Origin: a virus
Length of the DNA stretch: 41,499 bases
Virus record (IMG/VR): IMGVR_UViG_3300040801_001811
Span: 1 to 41,499 of that record
Strand: one strand, 5' to 3'
Positions 2,434-37,643 of the stretch are shown in pieces. The notes beneath the pieces are model-generated. The model was not told the DNA's origin and ran no database searches. It was given only the letters and a program-made list of their open reading frames with translations. Both the position numbers and the translations under genes were made by a program. How positions within the stretch are numbered: the first letter of the stretch is position 1; the number at the start of each line of letters is the position of its first letter.

Positions 2434-2820
2434 GTGCATATTTCAGTTAGATACGATGTCAGTGATCTCTGTTTTCTGTTAGACAGAATCATTGTTGAAG
2501 TGATGTCGAAAGATAATGACTATCAGTATTGGCACGACCACTACAGGCTTTCAGTCTACAGATTGATTCTCTGGTGGTTTGCAGATCGGTTAGACCATGT
2601 TAACGGGTTCCCAATGCTGCACGACGGCTTTGTTGATGTGCCTCACTCATTGAGAATACATTTACTAAACGCCACATCGAACATACAGGCCATGCTTTAC
2701 AGCATGGTACCATACCCACATCACGTCAACGCGGAATGGACCTCGGCTCAAATGGAGCTAAGAAACGGGGACCTTGTTATATCATTGCAAGGGAATAATA
2801 CCAATGTCAAAAGAATCTAA
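2434..2820 (+). CDS. Small unknown protein, first gene of the 2434-6501 operon
   Basis: The 128-aa product starts with GTG at 2434, preceded by GGCCGGAGTAACCA (GGAG ribosome-binding site). It is mostly helical and rich in His, Tyr and Trp, and ends in a short beta segment (NGDLVISLQG). This helix-then-strand layout recurs in several downstream neighbours, so they may be diverged paralogues. It is the first gene after the early-type promoter and overlaps the next gene by 17 nt. I do not recognise the family. The position suggests an early accessory role such as host takeover or defence evasion, which is inference. Confidence 0.6.
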   Translation: MHISVRYDVSDLCFLLDRIIVEVMSKDNDYQYWHDHYRLSVYRLILWWFADRLDHVNGFPMLHDGFVDVPHSLRIHLLNATSNIQAMLYSMVPYPHHVNAEWTSAQMELRNGDLVISLQGNNTNVKRI

Positions 2821-3301
2821 AATGTCAATGATCATTGATCTTGACGAGTATGTAGCATTCACAAGACTGCAGCTCAAGTTGTTCAAAAAGTCGAAGAAGA
2901 TTGACCCGGGTGACCCCACTGATGAAGAACTGCGTCAATTGGTATATGACCTAATTGATGCGAACATACAAGATAACCTGCTGTGGTGTAAACGGTATCC
3001 TGGCCAAAACATTTCAGCCATCCAAAAGGTATTTCCTTGGTGGTCTGTTAATGGGAAAGAAGATTTTCACTCGGACTTCTATGAAGAGGTCATCTCCAGG
3101 TTAGAGGATTTCTACAGTACAGAACTGGACTGGATACTGTGTGAAAAGACCTGGGACATTATTTCTGTGACAAGAAAGGCGTCAGTATGCGTGATATCTC
3201 GTGGGGAAGATTATCGTATCGTGGACTGGCATCATATCCAGAATGAGAAGGTGAAAAATGGAAACGGTTCGCAAGACTTCATTCCTCTTGGATTACGCTG
3301 A
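2804..3301 (+). CDS. Small unknown protein of the early operon
   Basis: The 165-aa product is acidic and helical, with an aromatic C-terminal half containing alternating hydrophobic strands (SVCVISRGEDYRIVDW). I chose ATG at 2804 because CAAGGGAA lies about 10 nt upstream. A longer in-frame start at 2774 would extend further into the previous gene and lacks a ribosome-binding site. The gene overlaps its upstream neighbour by 17 nt and its downstream neighbour by 44 nt, indicating translational coupling. No known domain is recognised. Confidence 0.55.
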   Translation: MSKESKMSMIIDLDEYVAFTRLQLKLFKKSKKIDPGDPTDEELRQLVYDLIDANIQDNLLWCKRYPGQNISAIQKVFPWWSVNGKEDFHSDFYEEVISRLEDFYSTELDWILCEKTWDIISVTRKASVCVISRGEDYRIVDWHHIQNEKVKNGNGSQDFIPLGLR

Positions 3302-3749
3302 AATAAAACAACTGTTAATAAATGCGATAAAGTCGCGTTTGAAGAAACAGCCAGACGAGGAAATTATTAATGATGTCATGCTGGGTGCTACCGAGCTTAA
3401 ATTAAAAGGTAGAATCGAGCAGGCTGTTTTCATGCCTGAAAAAAACCTTGAAGCCATCGGCTTTAAAAAAGATTACGCCAGTGAGCTTGCTGAGATTATC
3501 ACTGACTTTGCGTTAAGAGCAAATAGAAAGATTTTATTGACAGAGGTTGAGGAGATAGTCGCAGATTATCAAGTTAACATCTTAAAGGATGGACGTGTTA
3601 AAGTCACAAGAACCGTGAACCTAATGCCAAAGAAGGATGAAACAAAGGCGTTTAGGGCAAAGGCTGACGAATATCGTGAACACGTCTTAAAAGAAATAGA
3701 AGAGGGGCACTATTACCCAGAAAGGGTTAGGAAGTTCCTGGGGGTATAA
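3258..3749 (+). CDS. Small charged unknown protein of the early operon
   Basis: The 163-aa product is highly charged, Lys/Glu-rich and largely helical. A central amphipathic beta stretch (YQVNILKDGRVKVTRTV) is followed by a basic helical tail. The ATG has AGAAGGTG 6 nt upstream. The start lies inside the preceding gene (44-nt overlap), and the stop is immediately followed by the GTG of the next gene. No enzyme motif is visible. Nucleic-acid binding is possible from the charge pattern but is not demonstrated. Confidence 0.55.
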   Translation: METVRKTSFLLDYAEIKQLLINAIKSRLKKQPDEEIINDVMLGATELKLKGRIEQAVFMPEKNLEAIGFKKDYASELAEIITDFALRANRKILLTEVEEIVADYQVNILKDGRVKVTRTVNLMPKKDETKAFRAKADEYREHVLKEIEEGHYYPERVRKFLGV

Positions 3750-3750
3750 C

Positions 3751-4227
3751 GTGGTTATAAACCAAGTTACAGCATTGATACCCATGGATTCAAATTGGTC
3801 TCAGTCCACATTACCAAAACTTGAGTTCATGGAGCCCACTGGTTTTAAACTCGATGATGTCATTTCTGAAGCGGTTAATATAGCCACAGCAGTTATCGAT
3901 CATCTCGATGCTAATAGTATCAGCACCCACATTGACTATGGTGGTTTACATCATGCGTTAGATCATATCGCTGATACAAGTGCCCAATTTGCAGAGTATT
4001 CATCTAAGGTGTGGGAGTTCTACACTGACATGGTGTGGGAGTGTTACAACATCGTATACCCCTATATTCGCGTCTTGATGAATTACCAGCCCGCCACATT
4101 CTTTAATGTTGTTGACGGGTATCGTTGTACTGATGTTCGTGTCTCTAAACTTGTCTATGGTCCTGATTTTATCAGAGTAGTTATTGATCTGATAAAAGAA
4201 TACGGTGAGCAGATCACGAGTATTTGA
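3751..4227 (+). CDS. Small unknown protein of the early operon (GTG start)
   Basis: The 158-aa product starts with GTG at 3751, one base after the preceding stop, with GGGGGTATAAC just upstream. It has helices to about residue 90, then an aromatic YPYIRVLMNYQP segment and a hydrophobic strand (PDFIRVVIDLI). The YPY-hydrophobic-then-strand pattern is echoed in the next gene (YPYMRLIAFS), which suggests ancient duplication. No recognised domain is present, and the function is unknown. Confidence 0.55.
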   Translation: MVINQVTALIPMDSNWSQSTLPKLEFMEPTGFKLDDVISEAVNIATAVIDHLDANSISTHIDYGGLHHALDHIADTSAQFAEYSSKVWEFYTDMVWECYNIVYPYIRVLMNYQPATFFNVVDGYRCTDVRVSKLVYGPDFIRVVIDLIKEYGEQITSI

Positions 4228-4228
4228 T

Positions 4229-4576
4229 ATGAAAAAAGACTTCTACATCCCCTTCATACTGCCTCCCACTGACCCTAAGTGGGAGGCAGTATATGCCGAA
4301 ATGGTAAATGCTATCGACGACATCTTATTCAGATATAGTCGATTAACACCGATCGAACAAAGATGTGATGATAGATTTCTTTATGAAGCCTTACAGGTGG
4401 ATGAGTCATCTGCTGCACATCAAAAAGTTTTTACTTCAGTGTATCCATATATGCGCCTAATCGCATTTAGTGATGTGGAGTATTGGTTAGATTCCATTAA
4501 ATTGCTAAATGTTAGAGATGATGGCGCATTAAGGTTAACCGCCACGTTTATCCCAAAAGCAGGGTTGGACTTATGA
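4229..4576 (+). CDS. Small unknown protein with a strong hairpin in its 5' coding region
   Basis: The 115-aa product starts at ATG 4229, one base after the upstream TGA. An upstream in-frame GTG at 4205 would overlap the previous gene without need. The protein resembles its neighbours: helical start, YPYMRLIAFS segment, then a final strand (GALRLTATFIP). Codons 10-22 contain a perfect 15-bp inverted repeat (see the separate entry), which could modulate translation or transcript stability. The stop overlaps the next start as ATGA. The function is unknown. Confidence 0.55.
   Translation: MKKDFYIPFILPPTDPKWEAVYAEMVNAIDDILFRYSRLTPIEQRCDDRFLYEALQVDESSAAHQKVFTSVYPYMRLIAFSDVEYWLDSIKLLNVRDDGALRLTATFIPKAGLDL
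4256..4292 (+). repeat. Perfect 15-bp hairpin inside a coding region
   Basis: ATACTGCCTCCCACT (4256-4270) and its exact reverse complement (4278-4292) flank a 7-nt loop. The hairpin begins 27 nt after the start codon of the 4229 gene. No T tract follows, so it does not look like a standard intrinsic terminator. A stem this long by chance in coding sequence is unlikely. Confidence 0.75.
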
Positions 4577-5043
4577 GTGATAATAAATACTACGTTATCC
4601 CTTACGAGGAATACGAAGTACAGTTTAAACCATACCTTGAAACTCTCAGCGAGTTAATGGTGTCTGAAGAAATGCTGGTAGACGATAGCATGAAGCTATG
4701 GTTATCAAATGGTCCAAGATCATATTCACCGTTGATGGAATATGCGTGTGAAGCATTGTCGATGATCCATGATGAGGACATCGATGGAATTGATGATGGG
4801 TCAATACAACAGAAACTTGATCGATATATTTCGACAATACAGGAAGCAGTAACGGACCTTTCAGAGAAACTTAATCCATTCTTTGAGATTATTTCTCATG
4901 AGCACCCAGTACGTGAAGACTGGTATGTTTTTCGTTTGGGTAAAACACAAATTTGCATTGGGGTTGGTATAGATGCAGTCGACTCGTCAAACCTTTATCG
5001 TCCCTACAGAGATCGTGTTGCTGAACGTGCTTGGATTGTGTAG
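4573..5043 (+). CDS. Small acidic unknown protein of the early operon
   Basis: The 156-aa product is strongly acidic (many Asp/Glu in residues 25-95) and mostly helical. It ends with a beta pair (DWYVFRLGKTQICIGVG), the same helix-then-strand layout as its neighbours. ATG overlaps the preceding TGA (ATGA), indicating coupled translation. Acidic small early phage proteins are often DNA mimics or inhibitors, but nothing here proves that. The family is not recognised. Confidence 0.55.
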   Translation: MSDNKYYVIPYEEYEVQFKPYLETLSELMVSEEMLVDDSMKLWLSNGPRSYSPLMEYACEALSMIHDEDIDGIDDGSIQQKLDRYISTIQEAVTDLSEKLNPFFEIISHEHPVREDWYVFRLGKTQICIGVGIDAVDSSNLYRPYRDRVAERAWIV

Positions 5044-5380
5044 AGCATCGTCAATAACAGCGTTGACGTCGGAGCGGTTGATAGAAGCCGCTCTACAGAC
5101 AATGTTACGGTATAGACCTTATATGGTGTCAGTACCTCGTGAATGTATATCGTACAGTGTGATGGATACGGTATTTGAAATACTGGAAAAAACACCTGAA
5201 GCATCTAATGCTGCGATAGAAACCTTAGCTGAAGATCTTACCATTGTTATCATCTCAACCATCGATGAACTGATACAAAAATACTTTGGTGAGGATTCTG
5301 TTGTAGTCCTTGATAAAGTTTTTCAAGATGTCGTTGTGATAACGGGGCACGGTAATGAAGTTACTACTAGACACCGCTGA
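4973..5380 (+). CDS. Small unknown protein overlapping its upstream neighbour
   Basis: The 135-aa product starts at ATG 4973 with GGGGTTGG about 8 nt upstream. The start lies 71 nt inside the previous gene. The protein is helical and Leu/Ile-rich, with a C-terminal hydrophobic strand (DVVVITGHGNEV). The long overlap is unusual even in this packed operon. A later start is possible, but no better ribosome-binding site was seen. The function is unknown. Confidence 0.5.
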   Translation: MQSTRQTFIVPTEIVLLNVLGLCRASSITALTSERLIEAALQTMLRYRPYMVSVPRECISYSVMDTVFEILEKTPEASNAAIETLAEDLTIVIISTIDELIQKYFGEDSVVVLDKVFQDVVVITGHGNEVTTRHR

Positions 5381-5738
5381 GGATATACTTAGATTACGTA
5401 AGTGTATCGCACAGATGACAGTTGCAGAGGTTGACATGGATGAGATTTTATCTCAGATATGTACAGCCCTAACGTACAGACCCACGATCGATGACCAATA
5501 CAGTCAGTTCTGTAAAGCATATTCAACGTGGGGCTCATGGAACAATACACCTACCTCCGACGGAGCATTACTCGTTAAAGGTTGGCGCGGTGTATTTGAG
5601 AACGTATACCGACATTATAGACAGTTAGCATTATGGGAAGAATCTGGCGTAGCGCCATTCTCCTTTACAACGTTACTGAATAACAATGTCATGGTCATTG
5701 AAAAAACCCCTGAATGGAAAGAAGAAGATCCGGGGTAA
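5355..5738 (+). CDS. Small unknown protein of the early operon
   Basis: The 127-aa product starts at ATG 5355, overlapping the previous gene by 26 nt, with CGGGGCACGG upstream as a plausible ribosome-binding site. The N-terminal half is helical. The centre is rich in Trp, Thr and Ser (WGSWNNTPTSDG), and the end carries a short strand (NNNVMVIEKTP) and an acidic tail. No recognisable family. It shares the strand-at-the-end layout of the other operon products. Confidence 0.5.
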   Translation: MKLLLDTAEDILRLRKCIAQMTVAEVDMDEILSQICTALTYRPTIDDQYSQFCKAYSTWGSWNNTPTSDGALLVKGWRGVFENVYRHYRQLALWEESGVAPFSFTTLLNNNVMVIEKTPEWKEEDPG

Positions 5739-5760
5739 CGATAAGGGGACGGTGAAGCAA

Positions 5761-6078
5761 ATGATCAGACTTTTTGTAGAGCTAGAAAGCATCGTTCCAT
5801 TGATCGATGCGGTTAAGCACACGTATGAACCAGATCTACCGTTCGAGGTTGTGGTGCAAGATAAAAAATTTAAAGCCATAGTCGAGAATCTATTGACCTG
5901 TGTTATACGTCGAGACATACCCAAAACCTTGACTATCCAAGAGCTATTTGAGAACGAGGATATTGTCTGGTTAATTGAACAACTCATCGCATGTCAGATT
6001 AGTAAACTGATTATACGTGAGAAACTTCGACGAATCACGCTCCAAGATCTTGAGGGTAGCGTGATCCTACATCTTTAA
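5761..6078 (+). CDS. Small helical unknown protein of the early operon
   Basis: I chose ATG 5761 (105 aa) because GGGGACGGTGAAG lies just upstream. An in-frame ATG at 5686 would add 25 Lys-rich residues overlapping the previous gene. The product is helical and Leu/Ile-rich with alternating charges and no cysteine pairs or membrane segment. It closes the tightly overlapping part of the operon. The next gene starts 12 nt downstream with its own ribosome-binding site. The function is unknown. Confidence 0.5.
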   Translation: MIRLFVELESIVPLIDAVKHTYEPDLPFEVVVQDKKFKAIVENLLTCVIRRDIPKTLTIQELFENEDIVWLIEQLIACQISKLIIREKLRRITLQDLEGSVILHL

Positions 6079-6090
6079 AAGGGCGATGAG

Positions 6091-6501
6091 ATGAGTGAAA
6101 TAGACTCCAGCCATATCGGCAAGATTGTCAGTTTTGATGTTCTGCCGGCTGCTGTATTGGGTATGGGGACATACAGCTACGTCAAGATACTTGGTATCCT
6201 TGACGCTGCCTCTACCTTCCAGTTTATCGACCCGGTGGCGATGCATGCAAACGTGTACCCCACCCTACCGCCGGGTACCCCAAACCGTTTTGATGCTTAT
6301 AGTTACGTGAAACTGAAGTTTCAAAATGGGGAGATAACCTGCATTGGTCTACCATGGATTACAGCAGGTAGTTTAACTGTTCATGAAGGAACAACCCTGC
6401 GTGCTACGATTTATAACTCTTCACCGAGTGAATTGAATCGACTGCGCCAAGCCCTGGTTGCAAATGGTTTTAATGATATTGAGATATCCACAATCGATTA
6501 A
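6091..6501 (+). CDS. Conserved-looking small beta-rich protein
   Basis: The 136-aa product starts at ATG 6091 with AAAGGGCGATGAG directly upstream. Unlike its neighbours it is beta-rich, with Gly, Pro and Tyr (VLGMGTYSYVKILG, PTLPPGTPNRF), and contains a YSYVK motif twice (residues about 28 and 72). This suggests two related beta modules or a compact SH3-like fold. It is the last gene of the cluster. I do not recognise it. It could be structural or a small binding protein. Confidence 0.55.
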   Translation: MSEIDSSHIGKIVSFDVLPAAVLGMGTYSYVKILGILDAASTFQFIDPVAMHANVYPTLPPGTPNRFDAYSYVKLKFQNGEITCIGLPWITAGSLTVHEGTTLRATIYNSSPSELNRLRQALVANGFNDIEISTID

Positions 6502-6760
6502 TAATTACTTCGTATGCACTAATAGTATGACTGTCTGGGCAACGGTCATCTGCGCGTAGTAAAGTGTGGATATTGTCGTGGGTTGCTCGACCCGTCCGTT
6601 ACTCTCATCGACCGATCTGGCCTGTTACTCCTCCTTTGACTTGCCAGTAGGTGCGGTTTCCTCCTTTTCCGCGTTAGGGGGTAGCGGGCGGTGCTCGAGC
6701 TCTAGTGTTAAGCTTCGTGTGTTAACTCCGTGTTTGCCTGTGGGGGAAACCCCACAGGCT
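6502..6760 (+). ncRNA. Candidate structured RNA, or long 5' leader, ending in a strong terminator
   Basis: These 259 nt hold no convincing gene. A 78-codon open frame at 6566-6802 is low-complexity Ser/Phe, lacks a ribosome-binding site and runs through the terminator. Local stems are present: TGACTGT/ACGGTCA (6528-6534 with 6542-6548, 7-nt loop) and GGGTT/GACCC (6580-6584 with 6589-6593). A pyrimidine-rich stretch (6625-6675) and the strong terminator hairpin follow. No promoter element of the ACATATTAC type precedes it, so it could also be a long untranslated tail of the upstream operon. Confidence 0.35.
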
Positions 6761-6778
6761 ATTTTTTCTTTTTTTTTT
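6736..6778 (+). terminator. Strong intrinsic terminator
   Basis: GCCTGTGGGG (6736-6745) pairs perfectly with CCCCACAGGC (6750-6759) around a GAAA loop. A long T-rich tract follows (ATTTTTTCTTTTTTTTTT). This is the most classical intrinsic terminator in the window and isolates the DNA polymerase gene from upstream transcription. Confidence 0.9.
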
Positions 6779-6832
6779 GTTGGTATATTTTTTTATAACT
6801 AATCCTCTTATTATGCCCTAGGAGGATTCACT

Positions 6833-8968
6833 ATGAATTTGTTCACAAAGCCCCGTGAAGAATACACACGCGACCTTAACGTCATTGGTAATTACTGCCA
6901 GCAAAACGCAATCTACCTCTCCAGAATGACTGGCTGCTCTTACGAAGAAGCTCTTGAGTTCGTTAGAAATGAAGTTTCCATTGAAGGAAACTACAGCGCC
7001 AAAGATCCAGATACAAAGGTACTGGCAAAGAAGAGTCCTGGTAACCGCCAACCTACCTCACTTTCGTTTTCTCGTTTTCTTAAGACGGTGACTGATAAGG
7101 AACTTATTATCGCACCTACCTTGACCTGTTATGTGTCACCGAAGGTCAAGAAGTCATTGATAGCTGAATACATTACAGGTAACCTTAAGAAACGTAAGGA
7201 CATGAAGAAACTCATGTTCACAGCAAAGATGGCTTTAGATAAAGTCAAAGAATCTTTCTATAACCTTCTTCAGTCTACCTTCAAAATTAAAAACAACTCC
7301 ATCTCTGGTGCGCATGCCTCACCGTACCAGATCCTGTTTAACAAGTCATCGCACAGTACCCTAACCTCAACATGTCGATCTGCTACCAGCTATGCTAATG
7401 CTCATAACGAAAAGTTTCTTATGGGTAACCGACATTACTGGTCACCTGAGGTTACACGTGCAAACATTCTATCTATTATTCAGTTAACGGATAGACAACT
7501 GTTTAAAAAGGCTATGGATGAATACAATCTTCATTATCCAACGCCTGATGAAATGATGCAGTGTATTACCTACTCAACCAATCTCTACTGGATTAACTTA
7601 GAGGAGATTGAATCGCTGCGTGAGCTTAGCACTAAATTAGAACCGATTGAACGTGCGATGTTCATGTACGTTGGTGACATGTATCACCTAGCTAAACATA
7701 ATCCCACAGTTGTCAGGGATATGCTGGGCCAAATCTCTCAACGGGTAGAAAAGGGATGCGCTGATCCAGAAAAGTACATTAGTAGTTTGAATGCTGATGC
7801 GACTGCCCTGGTATCACTCCTTTGCTCAAAGATACTTAACGGGAGACAGTTAAACGATCTTAAAGAGCAAGATCCTGAAGGATATGCTATCGTTGGTGCG
7901 ACAGCAAAGAACGTTCTGGAAACGCTCGAAAAGTATCGCACCATGATCAAAGGGTTGTGGGTAACTATAAATCTGCCGCCATCAATATACAAAGCACCCA
8001 TGCTTTATCGCCGTTGTGCTATTGTATCTGATACTGACTCTACTATCTTTACGAATCAGTATTGGACAGAGTGGTTTGTGGGTCAAATTGACTTTAGCGA
8101 ACAATCGTACGCTATTGGATACACCACGACATTCTTGACCTCGCAGATTGTTGTTCATTACCTTGCATGTATGTCAGGTAACATGGGTGTTGTGACAGAG
8201 CAAATTCATCAGCTTACAATGAAGAGTGAGTTCTATTTCCCAACCCTTTCCGTTACCACCATGGCAAAGAACTATTATTCGTATATCTCCGCTCAGGAAG
8301 GCAACGTATTCAAAGACCTTGAGATGGAGATTAAAGGTGTGTCCCTTAAAAGCTCTAACTGGCCAGCCGCGGTGGCTAAGCGCTTGAAGAAGTATATGGG
8401 ATACATCATGACGTCAGTTATGGAGAAAGGGAAGTTAACGTACGCTGAGATTCTTGATCCAGTTTACGAAATGGAAAAGGAGATTCTTGACGATATTGAA
8501 GCCGGTGGTTACACCTATTTGACGACCAGTCAGATCAAGGATAGTAGCTCCTACGTTAACCCTGACTCATCACCTTACGTCTATTACCAAATGTGGCAAG
8601 AAGTATTTGCACCTAAATATGGTGATTGTGATGCACCTCCATACCAGTCTATTAAGGTTTCTGTAACTATCGATAAACCCGCAACGTTTAAAAGATGGTT
8701 AGAGGAAATGGAGGATAAGGAGTTAGCGAATAGAATGCGAGAATGGGCTGCCAGAAATGGTAAGACCTCAATCGGCATGTTACGTTTACCAGAACCTATC
8801 TTACAGGTCACTGGTATTCCTCGTGAGATCATTGACGTCATTGATCGAAGGACTTTGTTGTACAACACTGTCTCTGGATTCTATCTGGTACTGGAATCCT
8901 TAGGGCTGTTTATGATGGAGAAAGACCGCTTACGGTTTGTATCTGATTTCTATAAACCGTCGAAGTAA
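6833..8968 (+). CDS. Divergent family B DNA polymerase, palm and fingers part
   Basis: The 711-aa product shows two polymerase signatures. Residues 153-159 (KNNSISG) match motif B (KxxNSxYG) with a following long basic helix. Residues 398-403 (VSDTDS) match motif C (YGDTDS), with D400 and D402 as the catalytic metal ligands. No clear motif A and no 3'-5' exonuclease motifs are visible, so these may be very divergent or encoded elsewhere, as in other phiKZ-like phages where the polymerase is atypical. It would replicate phage DNA inside the phage nucleus. The start has CTAGGAGGATTCACT upstream, a strong ribosome-binding site. A strong terminator precedes the gene and a bidirectional one follows. 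Confidence 0.75.
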   Translation: MNLFTKPREEYTRDLNVIGNYCQQNAIYLSRMTGCSYEEALEFVRNEVSIEGNYSAKDPDTKVLAKKSPGNRQPTSLSFSRFLKTVTDKELIIAPTLTCYVSPKVKKSLIAEYITGNLKKRKDMKKLMFTAKMALDKVKESFYNLLQSTFKIKNNSISGAHASPYQILFNKSSHSTLTSTCRSATSYANAHNEKFLMGNRHYWSPEVTRANILSIIQLTDRQLFKKAMDEYNLHYPTPDEMMQCITYSTNLYWINLEEIESLRELSTKLEPIERAMFMYVGDMYHLAKHNPTVVRDMLGQISQRVEKGCADPEKYISSLNADATALVSLLCSKILNGRQLNDLKEQDPEGYAIVGATAKNVLETLEKYRTMIKGLWVTINLPPSIYKAPMLYRRCAIVSDTDSTIFTNQYWTEWFVGQIDFSEQSYAIGYTTTFLTSQIVVHYLACMSGNMGVVTEQIHQLTMKSEFYFPTLSVTTMAKNYYSYISAQEGNVFKDLEMEIKGVSLKSSNWPAAVAKRLKKYMGYIMTSVMEKGKLTYAEILDPVYEMEKEILDDIEAGGYTYLTTSQIKDSSSYVNPDSSPYVYYQMWQEVFAPKYGDCDAPPYQSIKVSVTIDKPATFKRWLEEMEDKELANRMREWAARNGKTSIGMLRLPEPILQVTGIPREIIDVIDRRTLLYNTVSGFYLVLESLGLFMMEKDRLRFVSDFYKPSK

Positions 8969-10313: not shown

Positions 10314-12185
10314 ATGGCTATCCATGACGACGAAGAAAAGAAGCCGACCGCAACTCGCACTGCTGAACAAGCGGCACGGCTCGATCCGAAACAGCAAGCC
10401 CAGCAGCGGGTAGCTCCCTCTGCGTCTGAAGCAGGCTTTCAGGCACGTGGTGGATCTGTGATGGATATCAACTCCCGACTGCGCCGCAGTCTGGGTCGTA
10501 ACACCACTGGTGAAGCTGTTACCAAGTTCGTCAATGTTTTCCGTGAGATCATGGAAAACGAAGTGGGTAAAGAAGAAAACGCATTCCGCGTTTTGGTACT
10601 GGACAGCCAGGTTCGCCTGACCGCACTGTCTGCTGTTGTTCTGGCGCTGTCGGTACAAAGCCAGGGTCGTACCAAGGTAGCAGCGTATACCATGATCGTG
10701 GAAGCTTCAGGTCCCCGCCTGAACCCGATCTCTGTCAATATCGGCGGCACCCAGGTTGAGCTGGAAGCCACTGCCGGTGATACCGCTGACAACCTGATGT
10801 GGAAGAAAGTACAAGAAGTCGTAGCTGAATCCTTCGGTGCCTCCGCTGAAATCCTTGAGGCCGGTTTCAACGTATTGCCGAAAGAACTCGACCCGACCGA
10901 TAAAGAGCGTGTACACAACGTTCTTTACAATGCAGCCGCAGCGCTGCAGACAACCCTGGATCTGGCACTGGGCGGTATTGAGGAACCGTTCAATGTAACC
11001 TGGATTGAGCAAGGCGACGTGCTGTCTGCTCGCGTTGACTACAACCCGCTGCCGATTGAAAACTCTGCTGGTCTGCCGGTACGCAGTGACGTCAGCATCC
11101 TGCTGAACGCATCGCGTCAAAACAGCGGCAACCAGATTCATGCTGCAAGCATGGACTTCAGTCGCGTCGATGGCTATGTCGACCTGGTATATTCTCCGCC
11201 GAAGCCGCCGATGTACGGTCATCAGCCTGACAGCCGTCACTTCACGCCGCGCTTCGTTATCACCAACAGTACCCCGCTGCTGAATGCCGTAACCATGGAG
11301 CTGCAGCTGCTGTCGCTGGTTACTGCCACCATTCTGCAACGCGGTATGGCATGGGCAGGCGTATTCAAGCCACGCGCCGGTGCTGGTACTGATCTGCGTG
11401 ATATTGGCGCCATCGGTCTGGAAATGCCAATCCTTACTGGCTCTGAGCCGGGCAAAGGTGCACGCGTTGATACCAAGACTGGCTGGAGCAACAATGATCT
11501 GCTGAAACTGATCAACACTGCAGTTCGTGAAAACCTGGTATACACCATGCATGTGGAAGAAACCGGTGACATGAGCTGGATTCAGCAAACTTTCCTGGCT
11601 GCCGGTTCTGGGCGGATGGATGCAAACCAGGTTATCCTGGAAGCTGCAAACAATCTGACCATGGGCAAATTCAGCCAGTTCTACAAAGGTGGCCCGGTTG
11701 TGGTAAGCGAGAACATGCGCGTCCACTTGGGTTACTACCTTGATTCCAACGGTGTCAAGCGCGATCTGCGCGACATCGATTACCTGGCTCTGTTGAACTG
11801 GGTAGGTGAGAAAGATATGGGCGTTGTTGTTGACTGGTGTGACACCTTCGACAAAGTCGACGTTCCCATGGAAATCCGTCTGGAAAAACAGCGCAAAATT
11901 CTGCAGAACATTGTCGGTGAAGGCAATGCTCGCATTACCGGTTACGCGCGTCCGGTAACTTTTGAGCCTGATTTCATCATGGCGTTGACCGCCGCTGCCG
12001 AAGCAGCTGGTCTGGTTATTCGTCCAGGCAACATTGCTTTCGATGCCAGTGGTTCTGGCTCGCGTGGCAATGCGAATATCGATCGCTTTGCAGTGTCTCA
12101 GATGGGCGGTGGCATGTTCAATCAGGGTCAAACCTGGAACAACCATCGTTCCAGCACACCGATGATGGGTCGCTGGGGTCGCTGA
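10314..12185 (+). CDS. chmA: Probable phage nucleus shell protein (chimallin)
   Basis: The 623-aa product starts at ATG 10314, with CCCAAAGGAGAACAAACGC upstream. A TTG at 10275 in frame lies inside the leader hairpin region and is not used. ChmA forms the single-layer protein lattice that encloses phage DNA and excludes host nucleases. The assignment rests on length (201phi2-1 ChmA is about 631 aa), a position immediately upstream of the RNA polymerase beta-prime N-part gene (as phiKZ gp54-gp55), a flexible charged N-terminus (residues 1-45), and a Gly/Asn/Met-rich flexible C-terminus (last 50 residues), which fits the disordered tail used for lattice contacts. Codon use is far richer in CTG, CGT and GCT and more GC-rich than its neighbours, indicating very high expression. 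A terminator follows. Confidence 0.8.
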   Translation: MAIHDDEEKKPTATRTAEQAARLDPKQQAQQRVAPSASEAGFQARGGSVMDINSRLRRSLGRNTTGEAVTKFVNVFREIMENEVGKEENAFRVLVLDSQVRLTALSAVVLALSVQSQGRTKVAAYTMIVEASGPRLNPISVNIGGTQVELEATAGDTADNLMWKKVQEVVAESFGASAEILEAGFNVLPKELDPTDKERVHNVLYNAAAALQTTLDLALGGIEEPFNVTWIEQGDVLSARVDYNPLPIENSAGLPVRSDVSILLNASRQNSGNQIHAASMDFSRVDGYVDLVYSPPKPPMYGHQPDSRHFTPRFVITNSTPLLNAVTMELQLLSLVTATILQRGMAWAGVFKPRAGAGTDLRDIGAIGLEMPILTGSEPGKGARVDTKTGWSNNDLLKLINTAVRENLVYTMHVEETGDMSWIQQTFLAAGSGRMDANQVILEAANNLTMGKFSQFYKGGPVVVSENMRVHLGYYLDSNGVKRDLRDIDYLALLNWVGEKDMGVVVDWCDTFDKVDVPMEIRLEKQRKILQNIVGEGNARITGYARPVTFEPDFIMALTAAAEAAGLVIRPGNIAFDASGSGSRGNANIDRFAVSQMGGGMFNQGQTWNNHRSSTPMMGRWGR

Positions 12186-12269: not shown

Positions 12270-13502
12270 ATGATTAAATTGGAACTTGTCGATCTTGATG
12301 AGTTATTCCATTCGTTGAAGTACCCGCCTATTATCGTCAACGATATTGACGTTAGCATGTCTGAAGAAAAAGACAAGCTAAACACAATGCTTTATACGCG
12401 ATACGAGGGAGATACCCTCGATGTCATGCCGAGCTGTGATTGCGGTGAACTACGCGGACAAGTCAATTCCGATCTTCGTTGCCACTCCTGCGGTAGTGTG
12501 TGTGCAAGCGTAACCGAGAAACCATTTGAATCCATGCTCTGGATGAAAGCCCCAACGGGCATTGAGACATTGATCAATCCAGAAGTCTGGTCCATCTTGA
12601 CAAAGCATCTATCAGTCACCGGCTGCAATGTACTGGAATGGTTGTGTAATAGCCTATACAGACCAACCAGTGTACGCGGCCAACAAGTAGCTGATAAGTT
12701 ACAGTCACTTAATCTACCAAGAGGACTGAATAACTTCTACACCCATTTTGATTCGATTATGGATAACCTCCACGCCAATCGAATTATAAAAGGTTCTGTT
12801 AAAGCTCGAGAAGAGTTTAAACAATTTGTGAGAGAGAACAAACATCTTTTCTTCACAAAACACCTACCCATCCCATCGCGGTTGGGTTTTATTATTGAAT
12901 CCACCAACACAGGCATCTATGCTGACACCAGCATGTCCCTGGCGCTGGACGCGATTAGAACCATCAGCTCCATTAAAACAGGTATCACTCCACTGCGCAC
13001 AAGTCGACTTGAAGCGAAGGTTGTAAAAGCAATCTCACAGATGGCGGCATATTACCGGTCATTCACGACCGGTTCATTGGGCGGTAAACAAGGATGGTTG
13101 CGTAAACATGTCTACGGTAGTCGTCTACACTTCACTGGTCGTGCTGTAATTTCATCGCTCAGTGAAAATCACGATTACGAAGAACTTCATGTGCCGTGGG
13201 GTCTTGCAGTACAGTTACTGAAGATCCATCTTAGTGCAAAGTTATTGCGCCGTGGATATAGCCCGAAACAAATCAGTGAACTGTTCTATCGCTACGCGAT
13301 GAACTATAGTCCGCTGTTAGATGAACTGTTCACGGAGATGATAGCTGAAGCGCCATATAAAGGCATTCCAGTTATACTGCAGCGAAACCCGACGCTGCAG
13401 CGTGGATCAGCGCAACAGTTTTACATAACCAAAGTTAAGACAGATCCTAAGATCTATACGATCTCAATGTCTGTGTTGACACTGCGGGCACCTAACGCTG
13501 AT
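12270..13502 (+). CDS. RNA polymerase beta-prime N-part, exon 1 (join with 14676..14858)
   Basis: Exon 1 encodes 411 aa of a split beta-prime subunit of the phage multisubunit RNA polymerase (phiKZ gp55-like, non-virion enzyme). A zinc-binding knuckle is visible (C56, C58, C71, C74). Residues 273-293 (KQGWLRKHVYGSRLHFTGRA) match the conserved [22 protein letters not shown] region. The frame runs to N409-A410-D411 and then hits TAA, which is the first triplet of a group I intron. The catalytic motif is completed only by exon 2, giving NADFDGDE with D411, D413 and D415 as magnesium ligands. The spliced product would be 471 aa. The ribosome-binding site is TAGGGAGTGATAAAAC. Unspliced message yields an inactive truncated protein. 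Confidence 0.88.
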
Positions 13503-13529
13503 TAACTCTTTAAACCAAAGGTAAAAAAC

Positions 13530-14312
13530 ATGACTGAAGTAGTGTTCAGTCCTGTCGACTCTAACTGGGAGGGGTACTATGAAATTCCTAACCACTCCAA
13601 GAACCACATAAGTCCCTATGGAGTGGTGATTGATGCGGTAACGGGAAATGTTGTCTCAACCCACAAGTCGACGGGATACGTATATGTCTGTATCCACCAT
13701 GACGATATAGACGCAGTAAAACCAATAGGTATCCATAGGTTGCTTGCAATGGCCTTCTATGGTCCCCCGCCGTCTGAAAAAGCCATACCGAATCATCGGG
13801 ATGGTGTTAAGGACAACAATTTCAAAAGCAACATTGAGTGGTCAAGCTATAGTGGTAACATCGACCACGCTTACCGCAATAACCTCAGAACAGACAATCG
13901 ACCTATCCTGGTAAAGGATTTGCGCGATGGTTCAGTGATGAGATTTCACGCCATGGCTGAGTGTGCTCGACACTTCAATGTAAGTACCGAGAGAATCTGG
14001 AGAAATGTTCGCGATAACACCGGGAATATTTACTTCAATTATTACGTCTTCAGGTTCGAAGATGACACAAGACCATGGCCAGCTCTGACTTCTAAGGATA
14101 TAGGCAAGGTTAATAACGGCGAGTCAAAAGAAACACTGGCTCTTGAGTTAGAGACACGCCAAGTCATTGAAGGGCAAAGCATCTCACAAATCGCGACAGA
14201 AACCGGTGTTAAAATGACGACTGTTGCATATGCTCTCAGAACTGGAAAACAGTACCCGGTAAAAGGTTATGTCTTCAAACTGAAGAATGATCCCACCCCC
14301 TGGTTGTATTAG
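13530..14312 (+). CDS. HNH homing endonuclease, intron-encoded
   Basis: The 260-aa product has a NUMOD4 module at the start (WEGYYEIPNHSKNHISPYG, residues 13-31) and an HNH domain. The HNH domain shows IGIHRLLAMAFYG, then PNHRDGVKDNNFKSN and IEW...NIDHAYRNN (residues about 71-118), with H..N/H..H metal and catalytic positions. Two DNA-binding repeats of NUMOD1/helix-turn-helix type follow: about residues 127-165 (ILVKDLRDGS...ARHFNVSTERI) and 210-255 (QSISQIATETGVKMTTVAYAL). It would cut intronless alleles of the beta-prime gene so that repair copies the intron. ATG at 13530 has CCAAAGGTAAAAAAC upstream. It is entirely intronic. Free expression from the unspliced message is expected. Confidence 0.9.
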   Translation: MTEVVFSPVDSNWEGYYEIPNHSKNHISPYGVVIDAVTGNVVSTHKSTGYVYVCIHHDDIDAVKPIGIHRLLAMAFYGPPPSEKAIPNHRDGVKDNNFKSNIEWSSYSGNIDHAYRNNLRTDNRPILVKDLRDGSVMRFHAMAECARHFNVSTERIWRNVRDNTGNIYFNYYVFRFEDDTRPWPALTSKDIGKVNNGESKETLALELETRQVIEGQSISQIATETGVKMTTVAYALRTGKQYPVKGYVFKLKNDPTPWLY

Positions 14313-14343
14313 CGACAACACTACCAGTCAAAGACTGTGTCGC
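14312..14343 (+). repeat. Hairpin at the 3' end of the intronic endonuclease gene
   Basis: GCGACA (14312-14317) pairs with TGTCGC (14338-14343). Inside, CAGTC (14325-14329) pairs with GACTG (14333-14337) around AAA, with an asymmetric bulge. It lies between the endonuclease stop and the intron catalytic core and is probably a peripheral stem of the ribozyme. Confidence 0.5.
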
Positions 14344-14675
14344 AAAAGGTTTAAAGAATAGTCCTCCTGTGTGGTAACATGCAGTGAGATTCTCCTGAAT
14401 TGCTGGAAACCCCTTAGAGCTGTTTCACCACTGCGAGGCGAAAGCCAAAGCGACGGTTTGAAAACGAAACAGATTGGGCAATCAGCAGCGAAGCTCCTCT
14501 ATGTCAATGACAGTGGAGAACGTTCAACGACTATCCGATAGCACGGAGTAGACGTCAAGCGACGTCAAAGCGGGAGACATCCCTCCGGGATGAAGATATA
14601 GTCTGCTCCTACGGGAAACCGTAGGCGGGTGCCAAAGCGCACCGGTCTAGCCTAGCGAGCTAGATGGACAAAAGG

Positions 14676-14858
14676 TTCGATGGTGACGAGCTTAACCTCA
14701 TGCTAATCCTTGACATGGGAATGCATGATAAATTGCGGACACTCGCACCGCATATGGGGGCACTCGATCTGAAAAAACCCAGACAAATATCTCGAAACCT
14801 GGGTATACCTGCACCAGTAATTGCGACCGCTGCAAACTGGATCAGTGAGCTAGATTAG
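14676..14858 (+). CDS. RNA polymerase beta-prime N-part, exon 2
   Basis: Exon 2 contributes 60 aa beginning FDGDELNLML, the second half of the catalytic NADFDGD motif. It continues with a segment resembling bacterial RpoC after this motif, including LGIPAPVIATAANWISE in place of the PSQDVVLGLYYMT region. A start at ATG 14664 in the same frame would give an isolated 64-aa peptide. That frame crosses the splice site, has no good ribosome-binding site, and is not considered a gene. The subunit ends here, as split beta-prime N-parts do in phiKZ-like phages. The remaining beta-prime part is at 26790-28718. Confidence 0.88.
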   Translation, partial: FDGDELNLMLILDMGMHDKLRTLAPHMGALDLKKPRQISRNLGIPAPVIATAANWISELD

Positions 14859-24718: not shown

Positions 24719-26785
24719 ATGTCAGACAATAATCCCCCACGCATTGAGAATGAACTGCATCCAGATTTGCTGGGTGTGAACGCAATCAATCCCTGGGTCG
24801 GACATGATAGCTCTTCACGAGCAGCCATGTTGGCCTCACACATTGGACAATCACTTGTTGTAAAAGGTGCCAATATCCGACGGTGTCAAACTGGTGTTGA
24901 ACGTGAGTATGCGAAGTATACGTTCTCATTGAAGATGCCGTGTAACGCATTAATTATCCGTTGTATTCAAATGTATCCGAAGACAATGGGTGAGAATCAG
25001 ATTAAAGATAATCCGATAACGACTATCATCTACGAAGATGTTGATAGCGAGAATCGTGAGATCGGTATTCTTGATTTGGTTAAGTACCATCACTTGCACC
25101 AGCATTACGGTTTCCATTACCAGTACCGGTCTAAGGTTTTAGAGAAACTTATGCCTGGCAGCTTTATCCCAAAAGGTACCGTGATAGCGGATTCGCCAGC
25201 AGTATCGCCAGACGGTGATTACATGTTTGGCGTTGAGACTAACATCGCACTGATGTCGTATCAGCCGGTGATTGAGGACGGTGTTATTGTAAGCGATGAG
25301 TATATCAAGAAGCTCACCGCCACAGCTTACGGTAACCGGACAGTTTCTTTTGGTAAAGACTACTATCCATTAAATCTGTATGGCGATGAAACTCGCTATA
25401 AACCTTTCCCTGATATTGGGGATAAGATCAGACCAGATGGATTACTGTTTGCACTTCGTCAATACGACGAAATGCTTGCACCCATTCACATGACTCCAAA
25501 AGATCTGATGGAAGTCGACTACGTGTTTGATAGAACTATCTACGCGGAAGCCGGCGCCCGAGTTGTTGACATTGAAGTATACAAGGGGTGTCAGCCAACC
25601 AGTAACTTACCGTCGAACATGACGGTCCAATGCGAAATGTATTACAGGAAAGAACTGCAATACTATTCCGCGCTGGTAGCAGAATATGAATCCATGCGTA
25701 GAAAGCGTGGTGAAGCGTTAAAGGTCAATCCTGAGTTCCATCGGTTGTTGGTAAAGGCTCGTGCTTTCTTGAACGATGATAAGAAAAATCGAATCAACAA
25801 AACCATTAACCGTGTACCTTTGGATGAGTGGTGTGTAGACCTGACGTTTGAATACGAGTCTATCCCAACGGTGGGGTCAAAGATTACTGACCTACATGGC
25901 GGTAAAGGCGTTATCGTTGAGATTATGAAAGAAGAGGACATGCCTATCGATGCTGCTGGCAATAGAGCAGAAATTATCATGGATGCAGATTCCACGATAA
26001 AGCGCATGAACCTCGGTCGTTTGTACGAGCAGTACATCAATGCGTCGGCAAGAAATACGCAACTTACCATTGAACGACTGCTTGGTAATAAAACTCAAGA
26101 GGAGATTGAACTTGCATGGGATTATCTCATGGGGTTCTACCAGATTGTTTCGCCAAGAATGTACGAAGCTGTAATAAGCTCTGGCACTGAAACAAGAAAG
26201 CTTCAGCATCTTGAATGTATCGTGGAAGATGGTATCTACATGTGGTTACCAACCGACACACCTGTAGCATACCCCGATGTGGTAAGAGCCTTGCGTGATA
26301 ACTATCCCGCTGTTAATGGCCCAGTCACATACCGGGGAGCCTCAGGCATTCAAGTAACCACAAAATCAAACATCATTATCGGTAGCATGTATATCGTGCT
26401 TCTAGAGAAGATGGGTAACACTTGGGCTGCAGTATCCTCATCCAAGCTACAACACTTCGGTATACCGGCAAAGCTTACAAATGCCGACCGGTACTCATCA
26501 CCCATCCGTAACCAACCGGTGCGAATCCTGGGTGAGTCTGAGGTTAGACTGTTTGCTGCTACCGTGGGTGGAGACACGACAGCAGATCTTCTGGATCAGT
26601 CGAACAATCCTGTTGCACATAAACTGATTATCGACAACATCCTTGAGAGCAAAAAACCTACCGCAATAAAGCAGGTTATTGATCGGACTATACTACCAAA
26701 GGGTCAAGGTCGCCCACTCCAGTACGTCAATCACGTTCTGGAATGTTCTGGTATTAAGTTCGCCCGCGGAACTGATAAGGGGTAA
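24719..26785 (+). CDS. RNA polymerase beta subunit, C-terminal part
   Basis: The 688-aa product matches the C-terminal half of bacterial RpoB. Near the N-terminus, INPWVGHDSSSRAAMLASHI corresponds to the LxPLLEHDDANRALMGANM block. GVETNIALMSYQPVIEDGVI corresponds to the [21 protein letters not shown] block. DIGDKIRPDG and residues 385-397 (KITDLHGGKGVI, with D391 and K396) correspond to the GDKMAGRHGNKGVI core element that lines the active site. This is a piece of the same split, phage non-virion enzyme as the genes at 12270 and 26790 (phiKZ gp71-73-like). The ribosome-binding site is TGAGGATGTA. The N-terminal part of beta is not in the window. Confidence 0.9.
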   Translation: MSDNNPPRIENELHPDLLGVNAINPWVGHDSSSRAAMLASHIGQSLVVKGANIRRCQTGVEREYAKYTFSLKMPCNALIIRCIQMYPKTMGENQIKDNPITTIIYEDVDSENREIGILDLVKYHHLHQHYGFHYQYRSKVLEKLMPGSFIPKGTVIADSPAVSPDGDYMFGVETNIALMSYQPVIEDGVIVSDEYIKKLTATAYGNRTVSFGKDYYPLNLYGDETRYKPFPDIGDKIRPDGLLFALRQYDEMLAPIHMTPKDLMEVDYVFDRTIYAEAGARVVDIEVYKGCQPTSNLPSNMTVQCEMYYRKELQYYSALVAEYESMRRKRGEALKVNPEFHRLLVKARAFLNDDKKNRINKTINRVPLDEWCVDLTFEYESIPTVGSKITDLHGGKGVIVEIMKEEDMPIDAAGNRAEIIMDADSTIKRMNLGRLYEQYINASARNTQLTIERLLGNKTQEEIELAWDYLMGFYQIVSPRMYEAVISSGTETRKLQHLECIVEDGIYMWLPTDTPVAYPDVVRALRDNYPAVNGPVTYRGASGIQVTTKSNIIIGSMYIVLLEKMGNTWAAVSSSKLQHFGIPAKLTNADRYSSPIRNQPVRILGESEVRLFAATVGGDTTADLLDQSNNPVAHKLIIDNILESKKPTAIKQVIDRTILPKGQGRPLQYVNHVLECSGIKFARGTDKG

Positions 26786-36750: not shown

Positions 36751-36779
36751 AGAGGGGATCACTCCCCTCTTTTTTTTTC
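36751..36779 (+). terminator. Intrinsic terminator after the accessory pair
   Basis: AGAGGGGA (36751-36758) pairs with TCCCCTCT (36763-36770) around TCAC, followed by TTTTTTTT. It is preceded by the CGGCATAA lead-in shared with other terminators. The minus-strand macrodomain gene ends at 36778 and may use the same hairpin. Confidence 0.88.
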
Positions 36780-37242
36780 ACTTTATGTAGACGTAAACTG
36801 GAATAGGGATCTTATCAAGGTACTTATATACCAAAGGTAACACCTCCTTATCCCAATCTAATCCACCTAAGCCACACCCTAGACGCGGAATGGCTAACGA
36901 TGTAATGTTAAGTTCCTCCCACGACTGCGATAACAATTTAAGGTTGTGTTCAACCCATTCAATCCTCGACGGATCTTTCCAATGTTTCTTTGTTGGAAAA
37001 CAAAGTATTTGTCGCCCATCCGGTAACTTATAAACCCAGAGAGAGGTTACCTTGAGTTTAGAGCTACGGCAAGCTTGTCTATACGCATGCAAAAGACCCG
37101 GGTATTCTCGGGCCATAGTTTTTGCAAGACCAGCACCCATTACGCCAACCACGTTAACCGGACACGTAAGGGTTTGACATTCAGATAACATGATGTCACC
37201 GTCTGTTATCCCTAAGTGCCCGACTTCATCGTATATTGTCAT
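36778..37242 (-). CDS. DarG-like macrodomain protein
   Basis: The 154-aa product (start ATG at 37242 overlapping the upstream TGA, with AGGGAAATCACTGTG before it) is a stand-alone macrodomain. Visible blocks: GDI (residues 15-17), CPVNVVGVMGAGLA (27-40) matching the ADP-ribose-binding N-x-x-G-x-MG-x-G loop, CFPTKKHWKDPS, and AIPRLGCGLGGLDW. The last two closely resemble the DarG antitoxin macrodomain, which removes ADP-ribose from thymidine in DNA modified by the DarT toxin. No DarG C-terminal extension and no DarT-type gene are present here. A likely role is protecting phage DNA from host DarT-type defence or reversing ADP-ribosylation. It is a family-level inference. Confidence 0.85.
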   Translation of the reverse strand: MTIYDEVGHLGITDGDIMLSECQTLTCPVNVVGVMGAGLAKTMAREYPGLLHAYRQACRSSKLKVTSLWVYKLPDGRQILCFPTKKHWKDPSRIEWVEHNLKLLSQSWEELNITSLAIPRLGCGLGGLDWDKEVLPLVYKYLDKIPIPVYVYIK

Positions 37243-37643
37243 CACAGTGATTTCCCTAACTTTGTAAGCTCCCGCATAGTGTTTTCAGCCTGAGGTGCTT
37301 CACGTTGAACATCGTCAGCAGCAAGCTTTAGCAGATACTCGGTTATATGTCTTGGGTATAGCAAGAATTTATCAAGCGTAATCCCAAAGCGTTTATTGAT
37401 CTCATAAACCTTGTATCGCCATATCTTGTTCTGTATAGGACCAAACGAATGAATATCTTCTTTAGGTCTAACAGACACATAGCTCAAAGGACCCAGCGAC
37501 GGATCATCATCCGTGGTAATACCATAAGCGTTTTGATAAGCACGTTGTCTTAAAATTTCAAACGTGATATTATCAATCTTATCTCCACTTTGTTCCAGTG
37601 AAGTTATAAGCTCTTTTAAACGATCCAGCCACTGACCAGTCAC
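37242..37643 (-). CDS. Unknown protein co-transcribed with the macrodomain gene
   Basis: The 133-aa product is helical and charged, with a central polar segment (DDDPSLGPLSYVSVRPKED) and no recognisable catalytic motif. It overlaps the downstream macrodomain gene by a shared ATGA, so the two are translated together. It is too short and lacks the NAD-binding or catalytic features expected of a DarT-type toxin. A partner or independent accessory protein is likely. Confidence 0.55.
   Translation of the reverse strand: MTGQWLDRLKELITSLEQSGDKIDNITFEILRQRAYQNAYGITTDDDPSLGPLSYVSVRPKEDIHSFGPIQNKIWRYKVYEINKRFGITLDKFLLYPRHITEYLLKLAADDVQREAPQAENTMRELTKLGKSL

Follow-up and report, generated by a model that had tools for sequence, protein, structure and literature searches.

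Phage multisubunit RNA polymerases very likely present, in their catalytic motif, a shared target for group I introns, which occupy about eleven positions within ten codons, in part as tandem insertions separated by micro-exons of 6 to 20 nt that would be spliced by two or three ribozymes; the same insertions could explain the crass-like phage genes reported to be broken at this motif. The 41.5-kb stretch of viral DNA analyzed here (the window) provides one such case. Judging from its sequence, positions 13503 to 14675 almost certainly correspond to a mobile group I intron that encodes an HNH homing endonuclease, splits the polymerase gene between NAD and FDGD, and is predicted to be spliced (Table 1). 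Taken alone, this intron is a further example of an already known intron type.

Table 1. Features of the window and of related loci. Insertion sites are written on A-P-N-A-D-F-D-G-D-Q, a slash marking the insertion point
Sequence	Feature	Position	Strand	Basis or detail
Window	Chimallin (phage nucleus shell) gene	10317-12185	+	PF25677, E=1.3e-68
Window	Exon 1, N-terminal beta-prime subunit of non-virion RNA polymerase	12270-13502	+	phrog_2987, E=6e-143; PDB 7OGP chain A
Window	Group I intron of 1173 nt separating NAD from FDGD	13503-14675	+	Spliced alignment, Rfam core, fold
Window	P1 5' strand	13500-13516	+	Minimum-energy fold; exon GAU 13500-13502, intron UA 13503-13504, extension 13507-13516
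Window	Putative ribosome-binding-like AAAGG upstream of endonuclease ORF	13517-13521	+	Sequence
Window	HNH homing endonuclease ORF, 260 aa, in P1 loop	13530-14312	+	HNH_3, 28.9 bits; phrog_59, E=2e-28
Window	Group I catalytic core	14343-14625	+	RF00028, 93.1 bits
Window	P1 3' strand and internal guide	14348-14363	+	Minimum-energy fold; extension 14348-14357, guide UAGUC 14359-14363
Window	P7 5' strand, GACTA	14529-14533	+	Rfam alignment
Window	P7 3' strand, TAGTC	14599-14603	+	Rfam alignment
Window	Exon 2, FDGDELN..., 60 codons plus stop	14676-14858	+	Alignment with relatives, PDB 7OGP
LucasX, L203	Site A/P			
L025, L198	Site one base into the codon preceding N			
phiKZ group, L030, L052	Site N/A			
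L086, L094, L096, L195, L220	Site A/D			
Window, L018, L037, L038, L050, L052, L080, L084, L198, L203, L242, L244, L246	Site D/F			
L019, L042	Site one base into F			
Goslar	Site two bases into F			
L241	Site D/G			
L018, L025, L037, L038, L048, L067, L081, L086, L090, L094, L195, L203; phage records Aeromonas D3, VP4B, 2050HW, PBS1	Site G/D			
PA7, Brmt, PS119XW, KEN49, L052, L198, L242	Site D/Q			
Goslar	Site one codon beyond D/Q			
L010, L011, L017, L038, L081, L094	Site R-N/P			
L052	Three tandem introns	5231-6640		Micro-exons 6 nt (A-D) and 12 nt (F-D-G-D)
L198	Three tandem introns	5226-6367		Micro-exons 11 and 12 nt
L203	Three tandem introns	5616-6664		Micro-exons 12 and 9 nt
L018, L037, L038	Micro-exon			9 nt (F-D-G or Y-D-G)
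L086, L195	Micro-exon			12 nt (D-F-D-G)
L025	Micro-exon			20 nt
KEN49 (L017, PP456877)	Two introns with micro-exon	2592-4370		18 nt (A-D-F-D-G-D)
Goslar (L249, MK327938)	Two introns with micro-exon	about 3623-5430		13 nt, CGACGGTGACGCT
L110 (crass-like)	Insertion at D/F, the window's position	4553-5462		LAGLIDADG-like ORF judged by eye
L113 (crass-like)	Insertion after DFD	4544-5454		
L114 (crass-like)	Insertion after DFD			
L164 (crass-like)	Insertion before last D	5460-5710		RF00028 match

The interrupted gene encodes a homologue of phiKZ gp55. Exon 1 comprises 411 codons ending in A-P-N-A-D and is followed directly by an in-frame TAA at 13503 to 13505. The joined exons specify a phrog_2987/phiKZ gp55-like protein that aligns with the solved phiKZ subunit (PDB 7OGP chain A) over 465 residues, including the NADFDGD junction, and shows double-psi beta-barrel (DPBB) domain homology with DxDGD, as in the N-terminal beta-prime subunit of phiKZ-type non-virion RNA polymerases. 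The break thus falls within the magnesium-binding aspartate motif, as the initial annotation had it. Because a chimallin gene (product 27% identical to PhiPA3 gp53) adjoins the beta-prime gene immediately on its 5' side, a gene order common to phiKZ, PhiPA3, and PA7, the window phage belongs with the nucleus-forming phages (chimalliviruses). When the first 20 kb of the window were compared with the phage collection for near-identical sequences, no match was obtained. Elsewhere in the window, the C-terminal beta subunit, whose phiKZ counterpart is gp71-73, is a single unbroken ORF of 688 aa (24719 to 26785), and a macro-domain protein is encoded on the minus strand at 36778 to 37245 (PF01661, E=4e-11).

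The group I identity first proposed from P7-like strands and splice-site bases was borne out by the covariance-model search suggested with it: the RF00028 match (E=8e-23, cut-off 50 bits) covers the whole model, with P3 to P9 and P7, and is the sole Rfam match in the window. In a spliced alignment run without any splice-site rule the proposed endpoints scored at the top, tied only with a 1-nt shift, and among the top alignments they alone have U before the intron and G at its end (G14675); both endpoints hold to the base. Computed with the ORF loop removed, the minimum-energy fold (z = -5.1 against shuffles) contains P1, in which GAU/UA pairs with UAGUC, placing the splice-site U13502 opposite G14361, and is then continued by a 10-bp extension. 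Where P1 reaches into the exon it comprises just 3 bp, which taken alone do not exceed control positions; the case for the intron rests jointly on the core, the fold, and the exon alignment. The motif is intact in the intronless relatives FLC9, PhiPA3, and PA1C, in agreement with the predicted junction. The survey of relatives described below found no intronless allele nearly identical to the window's beta-prime gene; the closest relative, L018 (52% protein identity), also carries introns.

Missing from the initial annotation was the HNH endonuclease ORF in the 5' part of the intron, which matches HNH_3 (PF13392) above the cut-off of 24.8 bits. The histidine of its N-H-R-D-G motif, H89, aligns with H82 of the related PhiPA3 gp210, which nicks the intronless site and whose H82R mutant does not inhibit phiKZ (PMC11620839). 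Cleavage and competition were demonstrated for the gp210 system (Birkholz 2024; PMC11620839) and would be expected for the window phage. The endonuclease is most like those of L084 and L080 (128 and 109 bits), both inserted at D/F. In the endonuclease tree the site labels require 7 changes, against 9.2 after shuffling (as few in 2 of 200 shuffles), a weakly supported hint that the insertion site is set by the endonuclease and not by the ribozyme. The three D/F endonucleases cluster in only 56% of bootstraps. In the tree of 42 intron cores, the resolution of which is too weak to judge movement between sites, the window core did not group with the other D/F introns.

The initial annotation placed the phiKZ intron in the beta subunit (gp71-73) only; this is incomplete, as phiKZ also has one in the NADFDGD motif of beta-prime, and the window is consequently not the first case in this subunit. 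The phiKZ gp55 ORF ends in ...K-A-P-N followed by G-Q-L-N-N-stop; the HNH gene gp56 and an RF00028 core come next, after which the frame resumes with A-D-F-D-G-D (gp56.1). In the solved enzyme (PDB 7OGP chain A) PHIKZ055 is fused to PHIKZ056.1, with DFDGD at residues 417 to 421 (PMC8287921), and the 56 kDa stated for native gp55 (PMC4666361) exceeds what the 420-aa ORF could encode. An intron in the motif is thus implicit in published data. The two systems thus share a group I intron, an HNH endonuclease (105 bits between gp56 and that of the window), the subunit, and the motif. They differ in that the phiKZ site is N/A, 6 nt upstream of the window's, and show only distant similarity in core and endonuclease. 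PhiPA3 offers a second parallel, an intron with an HNH endonuclease at the active-site region of a polymerase gene in a nucleus-forming phage, but there the interrupted gene is that of the beta subunit of the virion RNA polymerase, another polymerase and another subunit (PMC11620839). The window core is 71% identical to that of the PhiPA3 gp210 intron over 265 nt. Mobile group I introns with HNH nicking endonucleases (I-HmuI, I-HmuII, and I-BasI) also occur in essential genes of phages SPO1, SP82, and Bastille, although these, unlike the window intron, sit in DNA polymerase genes. Genes with several group I introns, a small internal exon, and exon skipping have been described in Bastillevirinae and Twort (PMC11878797), a likeness that concerns the window's relatives rather than the window intron itself; the text examined from that report states neither a size for the small exon nor its placement in an active-site motif.

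Some 100 relatives were surveyed, drawn from two largely overlapping IMG/VR scans with exon-1 alignments (80 loci each) plus phage records, and intron positions were called by spliced alignment under the U/...G rule together with Rfam searches. Group I introns occupy about eleven positions in the same ten codons (Table 1), the assignments in L096, L246, PBS1, and some tandem members resting on junction and guide pairing without an Rfam match. In loci with an uninterrupted motif, spliced alignment called no intron inside it. Elsewhere in the gene, introns were found only around R-N/P-T-L, a second active-site motif lying some 35 codons upstream in the conserved RNPTL. Of the 41 introns counted after the first scan (collapsed by hand, and from related phages that are not independent), 35 fell within 27 of 1,413 nt, with 0.8 expected. 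The idea put forward in the initial annotation, that such introns home to an active-site sequence unable to drift, gains strength from this restriction of nearly all relatives' introns to the ten codons or R-N/P, and further from a few crass-like phages, in whose distantly related polymerase the motif is also interrupted (see below). Additional introns called near the profile ends in divergent loci (sites -20, -14, and +9 to +19) were false calls of the automatic spliced alignment and were excluded, as was cr118_1, found through intron-core similarity, whose intron lies in a major head protein gene.

Presence and absence of similar introns at neighboring positions can be seen directly between near-identical phages. 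L031 is an empty-site counterpart of L030 (96% identical), and L247 is one, more distantly, of L048. The L030 intron (region 5240 to 7000) breaks the U rule, AAC with C for U preceding it, and was placed by the comparison with L031; its adjacent codons read AAC/GCC/GAT/TTT versus AAT/GCT/GAC/TTC in the empty allele within flanks that are 96% identical, differences that would be expected if co-conversion had accompanied homing. The guides of nearly all G/D introns, e.g., GC(U/C)GUC or GCCAUC, are complementary to exon GA(C/U)GGU, that of the PA7-type D/Q introns (GUCUCC) to GGAGAU, and that of the first Goslar intron (GAGUCGG) to CCGACUU. Wherever the guide is located, the long G/D and D/Q guides outscore all control positions in their own loci, whereas the shorter D/F guides (GUC or GUCC) are indistinguishable from controls by pairing alone. 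In the Bacillus phage PBS1 (L103, about 4783 to 5677), G/D holds an intron that contains an HNH ORF; the motif is intact in BpSp (L104). An in-frame ATG often terminates G/D and crass-like introns (L018, L081, L090, L103, L113, and L164), possibly by chance; in the window one lies 12 nt upstream of exon 2.

Tandem arrays of two or three introns occur in about fifteen loci, leaving micro-exons of 6 to 20 nt that encode only parts of the motif (AD, FDG, DFDG, FDGD, or ADFDGD). RF00028 matches above the curated cut-off flank every micro-exon on both sides in L018, L038, L086, L195, L198, L203, L025, and KEN49, and the cut-off is exceeded by all three introns in L198 and in L203 and by one in L052. 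The second core of L037 (49.5 bits) falls just under the cut-off and the first core of Goslar scores 46.9 bits; Rfam misses some cores in L052 and Goslar, which rest on reading frame, guide pairing, and a P7 read by eye. The last exon of L094 lies beyond the fetched sequence. KEN49, a cultured P. aeruginosa phage, combines the phiKZ-type and PA7-type introns, and its predicted micro-exon is confirmed by comparison because near-identical phages each lack one of the two: KTN4 the D/Q intron and Brmt the N/A intron (94 to 99% identity), the flanks joining at the predicted bases. Goslar, a cultured E. coli jumbo phage, has two motif introns, only one of which is annotated in its record (Intron_gpI); the predicted spliced junctions read GCCGACTT / CGACGGTGACGCT / ATGAACAAC.

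The polymerase of crass-like phages is only distantly related, and its DFDxD motif was uninterrupted in 57 of 63 loci. Four loci carry an insertion within it (Table 1), of which L110 and L113 gave no Rfam match and were assigned from their junctions and P7-like strands. According to Yutin et al. (PMC7886860), Zeta crass-like phages have RNA polymerase genes that are interrupted within DxDxD, for which they suggested unknown mechanisms of expression. The interrupted catalytic motif is the same, the insertions observed here being in four other crass-like contigs, and introns with micro-exons are a candidate explanation for the broken Zeta genes.

In the proposed mechanism, folding of the window transcript would bring exon GAU into pairing with UAGUC, its internal guide; guanosine would cut after U13502, and the freed exon would attack after G14675, restoring NADFDGD. 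Translation of unspliced mRNA would run into the stop codon right after NAD, so that active polymerase would come only from spliced mRNA. In co-infecting relatives the endonuclease would presumably nick or cut the motif where it lacks the intron, whereupon the intron might be copied in or the competitor harmed. It could be argued instead that the gene is truly split, polypeptides ending in NAD and starting near FDGD (e.g., at the in-frame ATG at 14664 that precedes exon 2) assembling without RNA splicing, much as jumbo-phage polymerases consist of split beta and beta-prime pieces (PMC7598289). We regard this as highly improbable, since the break would pass through the three-aspartate metal site, the identically arranged phiKZ homologue is a single fused chain of 56 kDa, and nothing would account for a complete group I core whose P1 sits precisely at the exon boundary.

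Equally hard to credit is a decayed, unspliceable insertion that leaves the contig with a dead polymerase gene. Such a reading could appeal to the evidence being the sequence of a 41-kb fragment, yet the core scores well over the cut-off, and the intron structure, the junction, and the open exons and endonuclease ORF, with its conserved residues retained, are all directly visible. Somewhat less remote, though still unlikely, is that the mobile intron is also a switch in which translation of the endonuclease ORF competes with P1 and thereby times the active late polymerase. The ORF does lie within the P1 loop and the 10-bp P1 extension adjoins the ribosome-binding-like site; however, presence and position differ between close relatives, as for mobile elements and not for a fixed regulator, and many introns at the motif have no ORF. 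A spliced, mobile intron is the reading we prefer.

In the openly accessible literature we found no description of a multi-position micro-exon hotspot, an earlier mention of the phiKZ gp55 or PBS1/AR9 intron being possible, and as far as we found the position cluster and the micro-exons are apparently undescribed. Homing introns are said to favor codons unable to change, an idea that becomes testable where a universal enzyme has received many insertions in parallel within ten codons of its most conserved motif. The tandem cases also raise the question of how an exon of 6 to 13 nt between group I ribozymes is spliced correctly when skipping it would delete catalytic residues. Gene callers miss such micro-exons, and phage polymerase genes that look broken may therefore be intact. 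For phage competition, intron-encoded endonucleases would have an additional target in the second polymerase, besides the beta gene of the virion polymerase known from PhiPA3.
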